Positions 8,179 to 23,754 of a stretch of DNA of 34,327 nt are shown here, piece after piece. The DNA is from an uncultured Clostridia bacterium. Its GTDB lineage: Bacteria; Bacillota; Clostridia; Christensenellales; UBA1242. The position numbers and the translations under genes were made by a program. Positions within the stretch are counted from its first letter, which is position 1. Each line of letters begins with the position of its first letter. A model generated the notes under the pieces. The model searched no databases, was not told where the DNA came from, and saw nothing but the letters and a program-made list of their open reading frames with translations. The stretch lies in NCBI GenBank assembly GCA_944350225.1, contig CALVOH010000003.1:1-34327 (forward strand). The letters run 5' to 3'.

Positions 8179-8207
8179 TTGACAAAAAATCTAAATTGTG
8201 ATAACAT
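8179..8207 (+). promoter_or_regulatory. Promoter of the gatCAB-aspS leader
   Basis: A perfect TTGACA and TAACAT are separated by 17 bases. The predicted transcript starts near 8214, directly before the GAGG site of the leader ORF, so the leader peptide would be translated from the very start of the RNA. Confidence 0.7.
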
Positions 8208-8224
8208 ATCTTTCGAGGTAAACA

Positions 8225-8281
8225 ATGTTTTTAAATCTTAATAACAATAATAATAATTTTAAACATCACATGAGTTTGTGA
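8225..8281 (+). CDS. Asn-rich leader peptide of the gatCAB-aspS operon
   Basis: An 18-codon ORF encodes MFLNLNNNNNNFKHHMSL. Seven of 18 codons are Asn, six of them consecutive at 8240-8257. A GAGG site lies six bases upstream of the ATG, just after the predicted transcription start. The stop codon TGA (8279-8281) lies inside the strand that can form the antiterminator. The operon downstream makes Asn-tRNA, so shortage of Asn-tRNA would stall the ribosome on this run. The arrangement matches leader peptides of trp and his attenuators in enteric bacteria; the use of Asn codons here is my inference from the sequence. It is too small for standard ORF calling. Confidence 0.75.
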   Translation: MFLNLNNNNNNFKHHMSL

Positions 8282-8317
8282 ACTTTTGTTGTGTTGTTTA
8301 AATCACGGTTCACAAAC
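8266..8317 (+). promoter_or_regulatory. Protector and antiterminator structures of the Asn attenuator
   Basis: Segment 2, GTTTGTGAAC (8274-8283), is perfectly complementary over 10 bases to segment 3, GTTCACAAAC (8308-8317). Segment 3 forms the last three left-arm bases, the loop and the first three right-arm bases of the terminator, so the two structures exclude each other. Segment 2 can instead pair upstream: TCACA (8266-8270) with TGTGA (8277-8281). A ribosome stalled on the Asn run would cover 8266-8270 and free segment 2 to form the antiterminator. A ribosome at the stop codon would cover segment 2 and let the terminator form. Confidence 0.72.
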
Positions 8318-8329
8318 CGTGATTTTTTT
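8300..8329 (+). terminator. Attenuator terminator upstream of gatC
   Basis: An 11-bp stem (AAATCACGGTT with AACCGTGATTT) and a CACA loop are followed by a run of seven T counted from inside the right arm. It lies between the leader ORF and gatC, where a terminator can only act by preventing operon expression. Confidence 0.85.
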
Positions 8330-8413
8330 GTTTATATTGATTTGAATTTGATTTGTTTTGTTGTATACTTATAAAAATAGATAGTTTACTGATTAAAAGG
8401 AAAATATAAATTT
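8330..8413 (+). other. gatC leader end with a possible weak second promoter
   Basis: After the terminator comes AT-rich sequence with TTGAAT, a 16-base spacer and TATACT (8342-8369), which could be a weak internal promoter giving basal expression past the attenuator. An AAAAGG site lies rather far (about 13 bases) from the gatC ATG. No T-box motif is present. Confidence 0.3.
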
Positions 8414-8689
8414 ATGGATTTAAAAGAAATTCAGCATCTGGCAGAACTTTCAAAATTAGAGTTTTCAAAAGAAGAACTTGAAAACTTTGCTTTGGATTTT
8501 GCTAGCCTTGTCAGTCTTGCTGATAAAATTAAAAACGCAAATGTAAAAAGCAATCGAGTTTTAAGTAGTATCGACTTAAAAGATTTGCGTGAGGATGATG
8601 TAAAAGAAAGCTTGCCAACAAAAACTGTTCTTAAAAATGCACCAGTTGCGAAAAAAGATAGTTTTGTTGTGCCAAGAGTTGTGGAGTAG
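8414..8689 (+). CDS. gatC: Asp/Glu-tRNA amidotransferase subunit C
   Basis: GatC is the small subunit that wraps around GatA and GatB and stabilises the amidotransferase that turns Asp-tRNA(Asn) into Asn-tRNA(Asn), or Glu-tRNA(Gln) into Gln-tRNA(Gln). The 91-residue protein shows the family pattern: an N-terminal LAELSKLEFSKEEL helix pair, a middle linker, and a C-terminal segment ending KKDSFVVPRVVE. It is first in a tight four-gene operon. The ribosome-binding site of gatA (GGAG) lies in its final codons, and gatA starts five bases after its stop. Confidence 0.95.
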   Translation: MDLKEIQHLAELSKLEFSKEELENFALDFASLVSLADKIKNANVKSNRVLSSIDLKDLREDDVKESLPTKTVLKNAPVAKKDSFVVPRVVE

Positions 8690-8694
8690 AAAAC

Positions 8695-10116
8695 ATGGAA
8701 ATTACTAAACTTTCTGCAATAGAATTAAGAGATGAAATATTAAAAAGAAATCTTTCATGCTATGAAGTAGCAAAAGCATTTATTGACAATATAAAAAAAT
8801 ATGAGAGTTACAATGCTGTTTTGGAAATCTTTGATGACGCATTACAAAACGCAAAAGTAATGGACAAAAAAATTGCCGAAGGCTTTAATGGAAAACTCGC
8901 CGGCATGCCTGTTATAATAAAAGACAACATACTTTATCAAGACAAAATATGTAGCTGTGGTTCAAACTTTTTGAAAAACTATAAGGCAGAATACAATTCA
9001 ACTGTTGTAAAAAAATTAATTGATGAGGGAGCAATCATTCTTGGAAGAGCAAACATGGACGAATTTGCTATGGGTAGTTCAACAGAAAACTCCGCTTTTG
9101 GTATAACTCACAATCCTATCGCTTTTGACCGTGTGCCAGGTGGTTCGTCTGGCGGTAGCGCGTGTGCTGTTGCACTTGACATGTGCCCTATTTCTTTAGG
9201 CACAGAAACAGGAGGAAGTGTTAGACAACCAGCAAGCTATTGTGGTATTTACGGATTAAAACCTACCTATGGCAGAATTTCCAGATATGGAGTGGTCGCT
9301 TTTGCTAGTTCTCTTGACCAAGTCGGCATTTTTTCGAAAACGATTGAGGACAATGCTTTGATGTTAGAAGTTTTAGCTGGATATGACGAAAACGACGAAA
9401 CGAGCGCAAAAGTCAAAGTTGATAATTATACAAATCTTGATGATGCAATCAAGACAAAAATTGGTGTGCCTATTGAAATATTAAACATGACAAAAGGACT
9501 AGAATGCGAAAAGAACTTTAAAAACTTTATCGAATTTTTAAAACAACTAAATTTGGAAATTGTCCCTGTTTCAATTAAAAACATCGAGCTGGCATTAGCG
9601 ACTTATTATATTCTCGCTCCTGCTGAGGCGACAAGCAATTTGGCAAGATTTGATGGTGTAAAATACACTTCACGTAGCTTAGCTGCAAAAAACCTACAAG
9701 AGATTTACAAACAGAGCCGAAGCCAAGGTTTTGGCAAAGAAGTGAAAAGAAGAATTATGCTGGGAAACTATGTGCTGTCTTCTGGATATTATGATGCATA
9801 CTACAACAAAGCTAAAAGTGTGCAAGGATTGCTGATCGAACAATGCAATGAAGCTTTTAAAAAGTGTGATGTTTTAGTTATGCCTACAACTTTAGGCGAA
9901 GCTTACAAAATTGGAAGTAAACCTAGTGACCCTGTTGAAACCTACAAAGAAGATGTTTTCACGGTTACCGCAAATATCGTAGGCTCTCCTTCCCTTTCCA
10001 TACCTTTTGGGAAGGGCAAAAACAACTTACCTCTTGGAATACAACTATTTGGCAAAAAGTTTGATGAAAAAACGATTTACAGTTTAGCAAAATTTATACA
10101 AAACAACATAAAATAG
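8695..10116 (+). CDS. gatA: Asp/Glu-tRNA amidotransferase subunit A
   Basis: GatA is the amidase-signature subunit; it releases ammonia from glutamine (or asparagine) and sends it to GatB. The Ser-cisSer-Lys triad is complete: Lys76 in IIKDNI, Ser151 in PGGSSGGS and nucleophile Ser175 in TETGGSVRQPAS. At 473 residues the length is normal. It overlaps functionally with gatC through a shared ribosome-binding site and precedes gatB by ten bases. Nothing unusual is seen. Confidence 0.97.
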   Translation: MEITKLSAIELRDEILKRNLSCYEVAKAFIDNIKKYESYNAVLEIFDDALQNAKVMDKKIAEGFNGKLAGMPVIIKDNILYQDKICSCGSNFLKNYKAEYNSTVVKKLIDEGAIILGRANMDEFAMGSSTENSAFGITHNPIAFDRVPGGSSGGSACAVALDMCPISLGTETGGSVRQPASYCGIYGLKPTYGRISRYGVVAFASSLDQVGIFSKTIEDNALMLEVLAGYDENDETSAKVKVDNYTNLDDAIKTKIGVPIEILNMTKGLECEKNFKNFIEFLKQLNLEIVPVSIKNIELALATYYILAPAEATSNLARFDGVKYTSRSLAAKNLQEIYKQSRSQGFGKEVKRRIMLGNYVLSSGYYDAYYNKAKSVQGLLIEQCNEAFKKCDVLVMPTTLGEAYKIGSKPSDPVETYKEDVFTVTANIVGSPSLSIPFGKGKNNLPLGIQLFGKKFDEKTIYSLAKFIQNNIK

Positions 10117-10126
10117 GAGTCTTTTT

Positions 10127-11542
10127 ATGCAATATGACGTCATTATAGGTCTAGAAGTTCATGCAGAATTAAAAACGAAAAGCAAATGCTTTTGTTCGTG
10201 CAAAAACGAATATGGCTCATCACCAAACAGTAACTGTTGCCCGGTGTGTGTGGGCTTGCCTGGGGCTTTGCCTATCCTTAATAAATACGCCGTAGAACAA
10301 ACTATAAAGGCAGGGCTAGCACTTGGCTTTGAAATCAATAAAACTGCTATATTTGAACGAAAAAATTATTTTTATCCAGATCTCGCAAAAGCTTATCAAA
10401 TCAGCCAATTAGAAAAGCCTATTTGCATAAATGGACATTTAAAGGTTTTTGACAAGCAAATTCCAATTAATAGAATACACCTTGAGGAAGACGCGGGAAA
10501 GCTTGTACATGAAGGAAAGGAAACTTTTGTCGACTACAATCGTGGTGGTGTTCCACTTATCGAACTAGTAACGGACGCTTTAAAAGAACCTCATATGGAA
10601 ACAGCTGATGAGGCGATTGAGTTTTTAACTAAATTAAGACAAATTTACGTCTACGCTGGAATTGCAGACTGCGAACTAGAAAAAGGTCAAATGCGTGCAG
10701 ACGTAAACATTTCACTTAAACCAAAGGGTAGCGATAAATATGGTACAAAAGTTGAAATGAAAAATCTTATGGGTTTTAAATCTATTTATAGTGCTATAAA
10801 TTATGAAATTGCAAGACAAAAAGAAATTCTCGACGATGGTGGTGTGGTAGAACAAGAAACTCGAAAGTGGGATTTTGACAAAGGCGAAAGTTATACAATG
10901 CGCACAAAAGAAAACGCAGAAGATTACAGATATTTTCCTGATCCAGACTTGCTTGCTGTAAACATAAGCAATGAAGACATTGAAAGAATAAGAAAGCAGT
11001 TGCCTCCTCTTCCAGACGAGATTAAGGAAAAATATATCACACAATACGGGCTTAGCGAATATGACACAGACGTCATCTTGGCAGACAAGAAAATAGCAGA
11101 TTTCTATGAAGAATGCATTCTTGAATACGACAAGCCAAAAACAGTAGCAAACTGGTTTACAACCGAAATCCTTGCTAGAATCAAAGGAGGCGCTGGACTT
11201 GGCATCTCAAAAGAAAATCTCGTTTGGATTATACGTGCCGTTGACGATAAAAAAATTCAGCGTCTTACAGCAAAGGAATTTTTGGCTGACATCTGGAGCA
11301 AAAACGTCGATGCAGAAGCAGAAGCAAAAAAACGTGGAATAATGGCAGACTTATCTTCCGACTTTGTATTCAGCATTTTAGACAAGGTTTTACAAGAGAA
11401 AAATGAAGTCGTGACGCAATATAAAAACGAAAAAGATGAAAAGATTTTAAACTTTTTGGTAGGACAAGTCATGAAAGAAACAAAAGGCAAAGCCAATGCC
11501 CAAGAAGTTAAAGAAAAACTAAAAGAAAAATTAAGTGATTAA
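10127..11542 (+). CDS. gatB: Asp/Glu-tRNA amidotransferase subunit B
   Basis: GatB binds the mischarged tRNA, phosphorylates the Asp or Glu side chain with ATP and transfers ammonia from GatA. The N-terminus has the hallmark IGLEVHAEL and two Cys-rich sites (CFCSC and CCPVC) for zinc, followed by GLPGALP. The middle has the kinase-like cradle (EDAGKL, NRGGVPLIELVT, ADVNISL) and the C-terminus a YqeY-like helical tail. The length of 471 is normal. aspS starts ten bases after its stop, which supports coupling of AspRS and the amidotransferase. Confidence 0.97.
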   Translation: MQYDVIIGLEVHAELKTKSKCFCSCKNEYGSSPNSNCCPVCVGLPGALPILNKYAVEQTIKAGLALGFEINKTAIFERKNYFYPDLAKAYQISQLEKPICINGHLKVFDKQIPINRIHLEEDAGKLVHEGKETFVDYNRGGVPLIELVTDALKEPHMETADEAIEFLTKLRQIYVYAGIADCELEKGQMRADVNISLKPKGSDKYGTKVEMKNLMGFKSIYSAINYEIARQKEILDDGGVVEQETRKWDFDKGESYTMRTKENAEDYRYFPDPDLLAVNISNEDIERIRKQLPPLPDEIKEKYITQYGLSEYDTDVILADKKIADFYEECILEYDKPKTVANWFTTEILARIKGGAGLGISKENLVWIIRAVDDKKIQRLTAKEFLADIWSKNVDAEAEAKKRGIMADLSSDFVFSILDKVLQEKNEVVTQYKNEKDEKILNFLVGQVMKETKGKANAQEVKEKLKEKLSD

Positions 11543-11552
11543 GGAGAAAGTT

Positions 11553-13286
11553 ATGTATAGAAACATGATGCTTGATAAAGTTGATGAAAAGCTTATTGGC
11601 AAATCCGTCAAACTCGCTGGTTGGGTAAACACAATACGTGATCACGGTGGAATAGTTTTCATCGATCTTAGAGACAAAACAGGAGTCGTTCAGCTTAAAA
11701 CCAATGACGACAGCCTTCTCTCCTCTCTGACAAGAGAAAGCGTCATCAGCGTAACAGGAAAAGTCGTTTTGAGAAGTCATGACACAGTCAACCTCTCAAT
11801 CAAGTCTGGAAAAGTGGAAGTTGAAATCGACGATATGAGAGTTTTGTCTAAATCGAGAGCGATGTTGCCTTTTGATGTTAAGGACAGTATGAAAACAAAT
11901 GAAGAAGTCCGTTTAAAATATCGTTATCTTGATTTAAGAAACGACAAAATGCAGTCGATGTTAAAACTAAGAGCAGACGTTGCTTTTGACACACGGCTGA
12001 TTATGAGAGAACTTGGATTTACAGAAGTCGCAACACCTATTTTAACCGTTCCAAGTCCAGAAGGCGCACGCGATTATCTAGTTCCTAGTCGTGTTCATAA
12101 AGGAAAGTTTTACGCACTACCACAAGCCCCTCAGCAATTTAAACAACTTTTAATGTGCGGTGGCGTTGACAAATACTTTCAAATAGCTCCTTGCTTTCGA
12201 GATGAAGACCCAAGAGCTGATAGATTGACTGGCGACTTTTATCAAATAGACATGGAAATGAGTTTTGCTACACAAGATGATGTTTTGTCCACCGTTGAAA
12301 CTTTGGTAGAAAAATTATTCTCTAAACACAGCAAATTCCCTTTTAATAAAGGGCCATTTAAAAGATATGCTTACAAAGAAGCGATGACAAAGTTCGGAAC
12401 AGACAAGCCTGATTTAAGAAACCCAATTGTTATGGTGGGGCTTGAAGACGTCTTTGCAAACACAACCTTTTCAGCTTTTAAAAATCGAACCGTAGAAGGC
12501 TTTTCCGTAAACGCTAGCGCACAACCTCGTAGCTTTTTTGATAGACTCCAAAAGCTTATGCTTGATGAGGGCGCTGAGGGACTTGCATGGGTTAGAGTTC
12601 AAGAAGATGGAACTCTTAAAGGACCTATCGTTAAATTTATCTCGAAAGACGAATGCGACAACTTGATCAAAAAAACAAATGCCAAAATTGGTGATGACAT
12701 CTTTGTCATTGCAGACGCAAATCCAAAAACTTGTTACAAACTTGCAGGAATGCTTCGCAATGAGGTTGGCGAGAAACTCAATCTAATTGACAAAAATAGA
12801 ATAGAGTTTTGTTGGATAGTAGATTTTCCAATGTTCGAACTAAGCGACGAAGGTAAAATAGAATTTTGCCACAACCCATTCAATATGCCAAAAGCAACAT
12901 TGGAAGATTTGAAAACAAAAGATCCATTGACTATTGAGGCATATCAATACGATCTGGTCGCAAATGGATATGAAGTGGCATCAGGCGCAGTTAGAAACAC
13001 AGATAAAGACGTCATGATCAAACTCTTCGAAATCGTCGGATATGGCGAAGAAGAAATTCAAAGACGGTTTGGCGCACTTTACACCGCGTTTCAATACGGC
13101 GCACCTCCTCATGCAGGTGTTGCGCCTGGATTTGAAAGACTGCTTATGCTTATGCTTGGAATAACAAACATACGCGACGTAGTGCCTTTCCCTATGAATA
13201 GCAGAGCGCAAGATTTGCTTATGGGTGGTCCAATCGAAGCAGATGAAAAACAACTTCGTGAACTGCATATAAAATTAAGGCAATAA
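11553..13286 (+). CDS. aspS: Aspartyl-tRNA synthetase, likely non-discriminating
   Basis: AspRS charges tRNA-Asp with Asp; non-discriminating forms also charge tRNA-Asn, giving the substrate of GatCAB. The 577-residue protein has the N-terminal anticodon-binding OB fold, the class II core (RDEDPRADR motif 2; GFERLLML motif 3) and the bacterial GAD insertion. Residue 31 is His in IRDHGG; discriminating enzymes such as those of E. coli and B. subtilis usually have Leu here, and His31 is one of the residues known to relax tRNA choice in Pseudomonas AspRS. Together with the gat genes in the same operon this suggests the indirect Asn route. The start at 11553 has a GGAGA site; an upstream in-frame ATG at 11535 would overlap gatB. 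Confidence 0.96.
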   Translation: MYRNMMLDKVDEKLIGKSVKLAGWVNTIRDHGGIVFIDLRDKTGVVQLKTNDDSLLSSLTRESVISVTGKVVLRSHDTVNLSIKSGKVEVEIDDMRVLSKSRAMLPFDVKDSMKTNEEVRLKYRYLDLRNDKMQSMLKLRADVAFDTRLIMRELGFTEVATPILTVPSPEGARDYLVPSRVHKGKFYALPQAPQQFKQLLMCGGVDKYFQIAPCFRDEDPRADRLTGDFYQIDMEMSFATQDDVLSTVETLVEKLFSKHSKFPFNKGPFKRYAYKEAMTKFGTDKPDLRNPIVMVGLEDVFANTTFSAFKNRTVEGFSVNASAQPRSFFDRLQKLMLDEGAEGLAWVRVQEDGTLKGPIVKFISKDECDNLIKKTNAKIGDDIFVIADANPKTCYKLAGMLRNEVGEKLNLIDKNRIEFCWIVDFPMFELSDEGKIEFCHNPFNMPKATLEDLKTKDPLTIEAYQYDLVANGYEVASGAVRNTDKDVMIKLFEIVGYGEEEIQRRFGALYTAFQYGAPPHAGVAPGFERLLMLMLGITNIRDVVPFPMNSRAQDLLMGGPIEADEKQLRELHIKLRQ

Positions 13287-18847: not shown

Positions 18848-19927
18848 TTAAACTTTAACAACTGAATATGACAAGTAAACATTCAAATTTGGATAGATTA
18901 TTGTTATTGTGGCATTTGTAAAATCTTCTAGCACTATCATTGTAAGCTCTTTGTATATCTTCCCTTCACTTGTAAATAATTTTGGTTCTTCATTTTTGAC
19001 ATTTGTTTCAAATATCAATAAGTCATCTTTAACATATATAGTTCCGTTTTTTAATTCTGCGTTTGAATTGAATATCAGTTTTATTTCTTGCTCATATTCA
19101 ATTTCCACTTCTATCTCTTTTATTAATTCATCGTTTAAATACACTAAAAGTCTGCTCGTTCCACTTTGCTTCCCTGTTATTGTTAGATTGTTGATTGACA
19201 GATTATTGCCTTCTTCTTTTAACTCTATCTCGGCTTGTCCTGTGTAATATACAGGGGTTATTGTTTTGTCTATTGTAAAAGATTGATTTTGAGATAAACA
19301 TATCTCGTTCGGCAATTCAATATTTGGCGAAACTGAGAGCACTTCAACTTCTACCGTTTGTTTTTGCGTTTGTAATGTAAAGGTTATTATAGTTGTTCCT
19401 ATCTTACTCGCAGTTATAATGTTTTTTGATACTTTAACTGAACTTCCTTCTAATGTTAAAGAATAATCCTTGTATGATTGAAAACTTTTTTGATTATCAA
19501 TCCCGTCTTCTCTTGCTTTGTCTATCTCTTTATCTAACAAATACAACGTTATCTTACTTGGAAGGTCTGTTATCGGCCCATCTGGGTTTTCTAAAACACT
19601 TATCTTTGTTGTTGTAATTGCCCTATCTTCTCCCCTCGTCGCCGTTGCTCGTAACGTAGCTGTTCCCACTTGTTTCGCGTATATGTAACCGTCTTGTAAG
19701 ATAGCTATGTCTTCATTTTCTATAACAAATGTTACTGTGGCTTCTTCGTCAGAGCATTTGTATGTAATAGGTTTTACTTCGTCAACTTGTATTGATATTT
19801 CATCAACTGCTATGCTTAAATCTGTCGCTTTCGGTTTTGTTACCATGACACAGATTATCGCTATCACGCAACACATTATAGCCATCACCGCAGATATGCT
19901 TATCACTACTTTCAACTTCTTCGTCAT
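18848..19927 (-). CDS. Membrane-anchored Ig-like (Big_2-type) domain protein, copy 1
   Basis: The 359-residue protein has a basic N-terminus, one membrane segment (about residues 8-30) and an outer part of beta-rich repeats. The first is Big_2-like (VDEISIQVDEVKPITYKC, then GYIYAKQVGTATLRATAT); another starts near LPSKITLYLLDKE and a third near LPNEICLSQNQSF. Such domains occur in surface adhesins and wall-associated proteins of Firmicutes; the partner is unknown. Only Lys3 differs from copy 2 (Arg3). No good Shine-Dalgarno site is seen; a weak TTGTAT-17-TAAGAT promoter would end six bases before the ATG, like the leaderless genes elsewhere in this window. A TGTCGAA 0A-box-like site lies upstream. 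Confidence 0.75.
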   Translation of the reverse strand: MTKKLKVVISISAVMAIMCCVIAIICVMVTKPKATDLSIAVDEISIQVDEVKPITYKCSDEEATVTFVIENEDIAILQDGYIYAKQVGTATLRATATRGEDRAITTTKISVLENPDGPITDLPSKITLYLLDKEIDKAREDGIDNQKSFQSYKDYSLTLEGSSVKVSKNIITASKIGTTIITFTLQTQKQTVEVEVLSVSPNIELPNEICLSQNQSFTIDKTITPVYYTGQAEIELKEEGNNLSINNLTITGKQSGTSRLLVYLNDELIKEIEVEIEYEQEIKLIFNSNAELKNGTIYVKDDLLIFETNVKNEEPKLFTSEGKIYKELTMIVLEDFTNATITIIYPNLNVYLSYSVVKV

Positions 19928-22674: not shown

Positions 22675-23754
22675 TTAAACTTTAACAACTGAATATGACA
22701 AGTAAACATTCAAATTTGGATAGATTATTGTTATTGTGGCATTTGTAAAATCTTCTAGCACTATCATTGTAAGCTCTTTGTATATCTTCCCTTCACTTGT
22801 AAATAATTTTGGTTCTTCATTTTTGACATTTGTTTCAAATATCAATAAGTCATCTTTAACATATATAGTTCCGTTTTTTAATTCTGCGTTTGAATTGAAT
22901 ATCAGTTTTATTTCTTGCTCATATTCAATTTCCACTTCTATCTCTTTTATTAATTCATCGTTTAAATACACTAAAAGTCTGCTCGTTCCACTTTGCTTCC
23001 CTGTTATTGTTAGATTGTTGATTGACAGATTATTGCCTTCTTCTTTTAACTCTATCTCGGCTTGTCCTGTGTAATATACAGGGGTTATTGTTTTGTCTAT
23101 TGTAAAAGATTGATTTTGAGATAAACATATCTCGTTCGGCAATTCAATATTTGGCGAAACTGAGAGCACTTCAACTTCTACCGTTTGTTTTTGCGTTTGT
23201 AATGTAAAGGTTATTATAGTTGTTCCTATCTTACTCGCAGTTATAATGTTTTTTGATACTTTAACTGAACTTCCTTCTAATGTTAAAGAATAATCCTTGT
23301 ATGATTGAAAACTTTTTTGATTATCAATCCCGTCTTCTCTTGCTTTGTCTATCTCTTTATCTAACAAATACAACGTTATCTTACTTGGAAGGTCTGTTAT
23401 CGGCCCATCTGGGTTTTCTAAAACACTTATCTTTGTTGTTGTAATTGCCCTATCTTCTCCCCTCGTCGCCGTTGCTCGTAACGTAGCTGTTCCCACTTGT
23501 TTCGCGTATATGTAACCGTCTTGTAAGATAGCTATGTCTTCATTTTCTATAACAAATGTTACTGTGGCTTCTTCGTCAGAGCATTTGTATGTAATAGGTT
23601 TTACTTCGTCAACTTGTATTGATATTTCATCAACTGCTATGCTTAAATCTGTCGCTTTCGGTTTTGTTACCATGACACATATTATCGCTATCACGCAACA
23701 CATTATAGCCATTACCGCAGATATGCTTATCACTACTTTCAATTTTCTCGTCAT
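22675..23754 (-). CDS. Membrane-anchored Ig-like (Big_2-type) domain protein, copy 2
   Basis: A 359-residue protein identical to copy 1 except for Arg3 instead of Lys3. The DNA differs by silent or near-silent changes at only a few positions, all in the first ~75 bases of the gene: the lysine/arginine codons near the start, and the valine and isoleucine codons in the membrane segment. The same upstream stretch with its weak promoter and TGTCGAA site is included in the repeat, so both genes should be expressed in the same way. Lying just after the acidic lipoprotein gene on the same strand, it might also be read from that gene's promoter. Confidence 0.75.
   Translation of the reverse strand: MTRKLKVVISISAVMAIMCCVIAIICVMVTKPKATDLSIAVDEISIQVDEVKPITYKCSDEEATVTFVIENEDIAILQDGYIYAKQVGTATLRATATRGEDRAITTTKISVLENPDGPITDLPSKITLYLLDKEIDKAREDGIDNQKSFQSYKDYSLTLEGSSVKVSKNIITASKIGTTIITFTLQTQKQTVEVEVLSVSPNIELPNEICLSQNQSFTIDKTITPVYYTGQAEIELKEEGNNLSINNLTITGKQSGTSRLLVYLNDELIKEIEVEIEYEQEIKLIFNSNAELKNGTIYVKDDLLIFETNVKNEEPKLFTSEGKIYKELTMIVLEDFTNATITIIYPNLNVYLSYSVVKV

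Follow-up and report, generated by a model that had tools for sequence, protein, structure and literature searches.

The gatCAB-aspS operon of an uncultured clostridial bacterium is headed by a short leader that is very probably a ribosome-mediated transcription attenuator, in which translation of a run of asparagine codons reads the charging of tRNA-Asn. This function had originally been predicted from the letters of a single 34,327-nucleotide stretch of DNA (hereafter the window, meaning the whole of that stretch), and comparative evidence, namely the recurrence of the leader in relatives and the covariation of its pairing segments, now supports it. The parts of the device, their conservation, their covariation and their placement before genes of Asn supply are all directly visible in the sequences that we compared.

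The prediction had placed upstream of gatC a promoter, a GAGG site and an 18-codon ORF with 7 Asn codons; a 10-bp antiterminator pairing overlapping an 11-bp terminator with a T-run; and a further segment complementary to the 5' antiterminator strand, which itself contains the stop codon of the ORF. Each of these elements lies in the window where it had been placed (Table 1). As a whole, the 122-nt leader folds with a z-score of -3.56, and 1/200 dinucleotide shuffles folds as well. A weak promoter-like sequence, TTGAAT-16-TATACT, is also seen at 8342-8369, between the terminator and gatC; it has the same position in L115 and L116, and TATAAT stands there in L117 and L118. It scores at background (443/1000 shuffles of the stretch do as well); as an internal promoter it could partly bypass the switch and give attenuator-independent expression. 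Elsewhere in the window, two near-identical ORFs of 359 aa on the minus strand (18848-19927 and 22675-23754) are apparently a recent duplication.

Table 1. Elements of the leader and genes of the operon in the window
Feature	Coordinates	Strand	Basis
Sigma-70-type promoter, TTGACA-17-TAACAT, TG before the -10	8179..8207	+	Sequence; similar promoters in relatives
Shine-Dalgarno GAGG of the leader ORF	8215..8218	+	Sequence
Leader ORF MFLNLNNNNNNFKHHMSL*, 18 codons and stop, 7 Asn, six consecutive (8240-8257)	8225..8281	+	Homologues keep the Asn run
Segment 1, TCACA, can pair with TGTGA 8277-8281 (protector hairpin)	8266..8270	+	Sequence; short hairpins by eye in relatives
Segment 2, GTTTGTGAAC, 5' antiterminator strand, holds leader stop TGA 8279-8281	8274..8283	+	Covariation; masked at stop codon in folding model
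Intrinsic terminator hairpin, 11 bp, loop 4, T-tract from 8326	8300..8325	+	Scan; terminator in relatives
Segment 3, GTTCACAAAC, 3' antiterminator strand, overlaps terminator	8308..8317	+	Covariation
gatC, first structural gene	8414..8689	+	TIGR00135, 62.8 bits, cut-off 47.1
gatA	8695..10116	+	TIGR00132, 577.3 bits, cut-off 481.1
gatB	10127..11542	+	NF004014, 566.4 bits, cut-off 414
aspS, bacterial-type AspRS (start codon chosen in this analysis; ORF list start 11535)	11550..13286	+	TIGR00459, 622.8 bits, cut-off 373.85

From this arrangement we infer where the ribosome stalls, when transcription terminates, which way the control runs and how it responds to Asn-tRNA, as follows. A ribosome would translate the 18-codon leader. 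When Asn-tRNA is scarce, it would stall in the Asn run with its leading edge ending just before segment 2; segment 2 would then pair with segment 3 during transcription, the terminator would be blocked, and gatCAB-aspS would be transcribed. When Asn-tRNA is plentiful, the ribosome would reach and cover the stop codon inside segment 2, leaving segment 3 to go into the terminator, and transcription would end before gatC. By such a switch Asn-tRNA, the product of the operon, would thus repress its own synthesis.

The genes behind the leader are those of the tRNA-dependent Asn pathway: the window genome (G000) has gatCAB and an AspRS, all four genes scoring above their NCBIfam cut-offs, and no AsnRS over the cut-off. 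Neither AsnRS nor AsnA nor AsnB scores above the curated cut-offs there, so GatCAB with AspRS is the only route to Asn-tRNA detected in this organism; the genome is 96% complete, and the absence of AsnRS is therefore not absolute. On the strength of that absence, the AspRS of the window would be non-discriminating. Across the genus, asnS exceeds the cut-off in 73/112 genomes, G000 not among them, and among the 12 whole-genome carriers of the gatC leader it does so in G129 and G106 only. All 14 genomes given to the search, 12 of them carriers of the gatC leader, have no asnA, and no asnB over the cut-off was found in any of 14 gatC-leader carriers, nine of which have weak sub-threshold matches. 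A glnS over the cut-off is present in 8/14 genomes, G000 not among them; GatCAB therefore probably makes Gln-tRNA there too, though the leader reads Asn alone.

GatA was found in 49/101 relatives, and at E <= 1e-150 in 39 of the 112 genomes of the genus. Directly before gatC, Asn-run leaders were identified in 16 species including that of the window. Thirteen of these leaders are full (G000, G103, G149, G123, G130, G017, G025, G044, G119, G129, G042, L036 and L040), that of G106 is partial, being interrupted by a contig end, and those of G340 and G371 come from other genera of the same family; L036 and L040 are named-collection records without a genus label whose GatA falls in the same clade. 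In the leader peptides of the relatives, for example MVFNFNNNNNNFNCHIAL, MLSNNNNNNNNSNHM, MLNIVLNNNNNNNLNHI and MSEFVNFNNQNNLCTSF, the Asn run is constant and its flanks vary. All 13 full gatC-type leaders have a promoter (-35 of TTGACA or TTGACT, -10 of the form TA...T) ending 15-28 nt upstream of the leader ATG, and all 13 have a terminator hairpin with a T-run; short hairpins comparable to the protector formed by segments 1 and 2 can be picked out by eye in relatives. The original prediction had named, as an observation that would speak against it, relatives with the terminator and no Asn-rich ORF or antiterminator. In the set compared (the 13 full leaders including that of the window, the two from other genera and the truncated one of G106), a terminator before gatC goes together with the Asn-rich ORF and the antiterminator.

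The leader is not confined to gatC. A model built from the 13 gatC leaders only (R1) was run on the 112 genomes of the genus, and its 12 strongest rows all correspond to gatC leaders, of which 11 had entered the model as full leaders. Fifteen weaker loci were read, down to L182 and setting aside G009:C39 (whose R1 score equals that of G009:C7), G123:C7, the second G125 row and one G056 row; 14 of them carry an Asn-run leader, which precedes aspS2 in eight cases and asnA in six. The remaining candidate (L181/G125; L214, G125:C1:172601-172755) has Asn codons and a terminator-like hairpin, with no ATG and no adjacent structural gene, and is regarded as a remnant. The gene aspS2 encodes a second type of AspRS and is followed by gatA on the same contig in 7/8 cases; in the eighth, G141, there is no GatA row at E <= 1e-150. 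Three of three aspS2 products, two from leader-borne genes and one from the T-box clade described below, exceed the cut-off of NF003483, the aspartate--tRNA(Asn) ligase family. The ammonia-dependent asparagine synthetase gene asnA (TIGR00669) is present in 7/112 genomes, six over the cut-off and one, in G120, as a contig-end fragment; every one of the seven has the leader, the seventh being that of G004 (MIKFINNNNNNLELKIHF).

At E <= 4e-8, a second model (R2), built from the aspS2 and asnA leaders, gave 17 places in 16 genomes. Each of these lies at aspS2 or asnA, and G014, whose operon is split over two contigs, was new among them. It also recovered gatC leaders on which it had not been trained (E 8.6e-5 to 8.5e-4, five genomes); its weak rows L216 and L218 turned out not to be leaders of this kind in front of an Asn gene. 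A third other genus of the family, represented by G431, has the leader before asnA. The leaders read thus total 16 before gatC, nine before aspS2 and eight before asnA, in 33 species of at least four genera and one family of small-genome uncultured Clostridia, and all lie at Asn-supply genes except the one remnant. The original proposal of control over gatCAB-aspS therefore stands for that operon, while its restriction to a single operon gives way to a small regulon of gatCAB, aspS2-gatCAB and asnA. Over 396 genomes of the order, the model R3 gave rows at E < 1e-10 only in the same family (G340, G371, G431, G103 and G000); five rows examined at E >= 3e-5 (L228, L229, L230, L232 and L238) are chance-like. 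Absence elsewhere in the order is weak evidence, because R3 scored only 7 candidates per genome.

This distribution bears on the suggestion that the leader is a general sensor of slowed translation, caused for instance by an antibiotic, with no specificity for Asn. Stalling leaders of resistance genes in Firmicutes are reported to be similarly built (PMC4191407, PMC6310831, PMC10314930). The feature conserved in our peptides is, against this, the Asn run itself, with 5-10 Asn codons per leader across the other gatC, aspS2 and asnA leaders and 7 of 18 in the window, and the genes downstream are gatCAB, aspS2 or asnA. We accordingly regard such a general sensor as very improbable.

At the aspS2 and asnA loci an additional element is seen. 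A second short ORF with Asn codons (e.g. MKKTNAVAGEDDNNNN..., MGKFFLFLNNFNNAVAGGNLL) lies between the attenuator terminator and the structural gene at L168-L177, L179, L180, L182, L191, L208 and L225, and a conserved GC-rich hairpin, GCC(n)GGGC, adjoins it at 15/16 loci scanned (the exception being L178), and by eye at L208. Neither the ORF nor the hairpin was seen in the window or in gatC-type leaders. Judging from sequence, the two together may constitute a second, translational level of Asn control.

A separate observation concerns the region 3' of segment 2, where the sequence CCTTTTG in L002, L004, L036, L119 and L120 could base-pair with the Shine-Dalgarno region of the same leader (CAAAAGG), and L117 has the variant CTTTTGT. 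When the partners were permuted between leaders, 385/20,000 permutations equalled the leaders' own pairing. This pairing may shut off leader translation on the terminated RNA, which is only suggestive.

The pairing of segments 2 and 3 is kept despite changes of letters, as in GTTTGTGAAC/GTTCACAAAC, ATGAGGGCC/GGTTCTCAT, GGACC/GGTCC, GAGCC/GGCTC, GTGCC/GGCAC and GGTTCT/AGAACC, so that the compensatory changes by which the original prediction had proposed to be checked are indeed found in these two segments. In a set of 11 dereplicated leaders, aligned in a register set by hand (L115 and L116 left out as near-copies of the window leader), the central five antiterminator positions form standard pairs in 55/55 cells, and positions 3 and 4 make use of A-U, G-U, G-C and U-A. 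On swapping segment 3 between species, 4/100,000 permutations match the score of the leaders' own pairs in that hand-set register; a version based on duplex energy, which dispenses with the register, gives 12/100,000 permutations as good as their own. The best duplex of L019 departs from the homologous register. Taken singly, 18/27 leaders are clearly better than their dinucleotide shuffles (<= 10/200 as good); the nine that are not clearly better are L115, L116, L003, L004, L120, L170, L171, L174 and L178, with the highest counts out of 200 in L120 (83), L171 (72), L004 (44) and L003 (40). The 27 comprise 13 gatC and 14 aspS2/asnA leaders, leaving aside G004, G014, G106 and the three leaders from other genera.

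We further modelled folding in the presence of a ribosome by masking the leader up to 13 nt past the start of the A site, the assumed leading edge. In 27/27 leaders, the predicted pairing between segment 2 and the terminator region is higher with the ribosome stalled in the Asn run than with the ribosome at the stop codon; the mean expected pairs are 14.6 and 2.4 respectively (n=27), a contrast due in part to the fact that a ribosome at the stop codon leaves a shorter stretch of RNA free. Segment 2 begins 13-26 nt past the Asn run in 12/13 gatC leaders. Folding with no ribosome still allows the antiterminator in many leaders, with 13.5 expected pairs in the window and a mean of 10.9 (n=27); the third state of the classical scheme, in which the protector hairpin of segments 1 and 2 would bring about termination in an untranslated leader, is therefore not well supported, and in the model the untranslated state is not uniformly terminating.

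Attenuators of the trp/his/thr/ilv type form a known class, defined by a promoter, a codon-run ORF, an antiterminator and terminator that exclude each other, and a stop codon in segment 2. The leaders described here resemble it in the order of their parts, in the stop codon within segment 2 and in their position before a pathway operon. At the level of sequence we found: 1) a short ORF bearing a Shine-Dalgarno site between the promoter and the first structural gene; 2) consecutive codons for the amino acid that the pathway supplies, conserved among species; 3) a terminator before the first gene; 4) a mutually exclusive antiterminator with covariation in the group, weaker in the 9/27 single leaders named above; 5) a spacing that, in the folding model, leaves segment 2 open while the ribosome is in the Asn run and covers it once the ribosome is at the stop codon (27/27). 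The differences are that Asn is read here, that the targets are the transamidation pathway, aspS2 and asnA, that the hosts are an uncultured clostridial family, and that there is no Rfam match.

These results also bear on the idea that the stall acts on translation or mRNA stability rather than on the choice of terminator, or that the peptide itself is the effector. The complementarity of CCTTTTG to the leader's Shine-Dalgarno region in several species, and the second short ORF with its hairpin before aspS2 and asnA, would suit such a mode of action. The terminator with T-run in every full gatC leader and the covariation of the antiterminator point instead to transcription, and the peptide is variable outside the Asn run; an effect at the level of translation, stability or the peptide is very unlikely to take the place of terminator choice.

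A further possibility is that a T-box or another known riboswitch senses tRNA-Asn or Asn directly and that the Asn-rich ORF is incidental. T-boxes are certainly at hand in these organisms: matches at E <= 0.001 occur in 66/66 tested genomes of the genus (exceeding the cut-off in 60), with four in G000, and in 15 species of a sister clade within the genus a T-box precedes an operon in which the AspRS gene stands before gatCAB. The leader-bearing loci look otherwise. There is no T-box in the window at the gathering score; 14 gatC loci (11 with the leader, and three leaderless neighbours) gave no match at E <= 0.1 to Rfam families including the T-box (RF00230); six aspS2-leader loci gave no T-box at E <= 0.01; and the leader is about 120 nt long, with no Stem I or T-box motif seen on reading it. 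We therefore give direct sensing by such an element at the window a very slight probability.

The attenuator and the T-box instead appear as alternatives at the same operon. In 6/6 aligned T-boxes of gatCAB (L032, L034, L144, L145, L146 and L147) the specifier, at what we take to be its position, is AAC (Asn). In G009 the two devices occur together, the Asn leader at aspS2-gatCAB (L178, G009:C7) and a T-box at a second aspS2 (L033, G009:C42), the latter with GAC (Asp) at the specifier position. In a GatA tree of 54 rows, 47 of them from the leader-bearing family, the T-box rows group together (support 90/63), 15 gatC-leader rows form a clade (support 100/99), and leader rows turn up at four other positions (a six-row aspS2 group, G043, G042 and G009); neither leader nor T-box was detected for 8/47 family rows. 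With leader and T-box at the same operon in sister clades, two unrelated RNA devices reading the same tRNA thus replace each other within a genus. Going by the tree, the leader may be the older, with one replacement by the T-box; the supports are moderate, and repeated gains are the alternative. We lean, by a little, towards a wider picture in which one trp-type device, placed before gatCAB, aspS2-gatCAB and asnA, forms a family-wide Asn regulon and is interchangeable within the genus with an Asn T-box on the same operon, the leader being possibly older and the second ORF possibly adding a translational level.

Six Asn codons in a row, (AAY)6, are found at a single place in the 831,551-base window genome, counting both strands, and that place is the leader itself. 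Among 12 gatC-leader genomes searched it is found in 10 separate places in eight genomes, seven of these places being the leader; in the other five genomes the Asn runs are shorter or interrupted, or, in G106, the leader is truncated at the contig end. A constitutive terminator of an upstream unit next to a chance Asn-coding stretch is rejected as having almost no probability: AT-rich DNA readily yields AAT and AAC, and the promoter scan of the window is, alone, at background (7 sites against 7.2 expected), but the genome has no second (AAY)6, 33 species share the arrangement at genes of Asn supply, and 74 of the 80 gatA loci of the named collection have no Asn-run ORF within 3 kb upstream, five of the six positives being of this leader-bearing family and one spurious.

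Several described systems are close to the attenuator proposed here. In bacilli, hisS/hisZ has a His leader peptide, whose place is taken by a T-box at other hisS genes (Naville and Gautheret 2010, PMC2965389). This case, too, is a codon-run leader before an aminoacyl-tRNA-forming gene in Firmicutes, with T-box exchange in relatives; it differs in that it concerns His and direct aminoacylation, whereas Asn and the indirect route are involved here, the exchange is on one operon within one genus, and the leader extends to asnA. In Rhodobacterales (alphaproteobacteria), the Cys leader uORFC-8-2 precedes cysS (PMC8632094), and is likewise a leader with codons of its own amino acid before an aminoacyl-tRNA synthesis gene; it has two tandem Cys codons, in contrast to the Asn run in Clostridia. 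T-box control of clostridial gatCAB, mentioned in the original prediction, is described for the transamidation operon of Clostridium acetobutylicum (Saad et al. 2012, 2013; PMC4052509, PMC4206432), which shares with the present system the pathway operon, the tRNA-Asn charging signal and transcription antitermination; that T-box binds tRNA directly, in this case two tRNAs (Asn and Glu), and has no leader peptide. The accompanying remark that ribosome-mediated attenuation is uncommon in Firmicutes is fair, with exceptions in the hisS His leader (PMC2965389), bmrCD (PMC4191407) and a Leu-rich attenuator peptide of S. aureus (PMC5794164). In the literature searched, which takes in only a minority of subscription papers, we found no account of an Asn leader peptide or attenuator, and no relevant mention of Asn was found within PMC1262725 (on Actinobacteria) or PMC2965389. 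What appears to be new, within a known class of mechanism, is the specificity for Asn, the existence of the regulon and the exchange with an Asn T-box inside one genus.

If the attenuator operates as proposed, asparagine would join the amino acids read by leader-peptide attenuation. Attenuation would also reach the indirect, tRNA-dependent route of synthesis, with the leader of the window sensing the only route to Asn-tRNA detected in its cell. Since one operon is found under two unrelated sensors of the same tRNA, each in its own clade of the genus, the replacement of a regulator becomes traceable. In Bacillus subtilis the coupling of transcription to translation is regarded as loose; were the same true of these Clostridia, it would work against attenuation. 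A functioning attenuator would mean that in these Clostridia ribosome and RNA polymerase stay close enough for attenuation, and the leader makes this directly testable.
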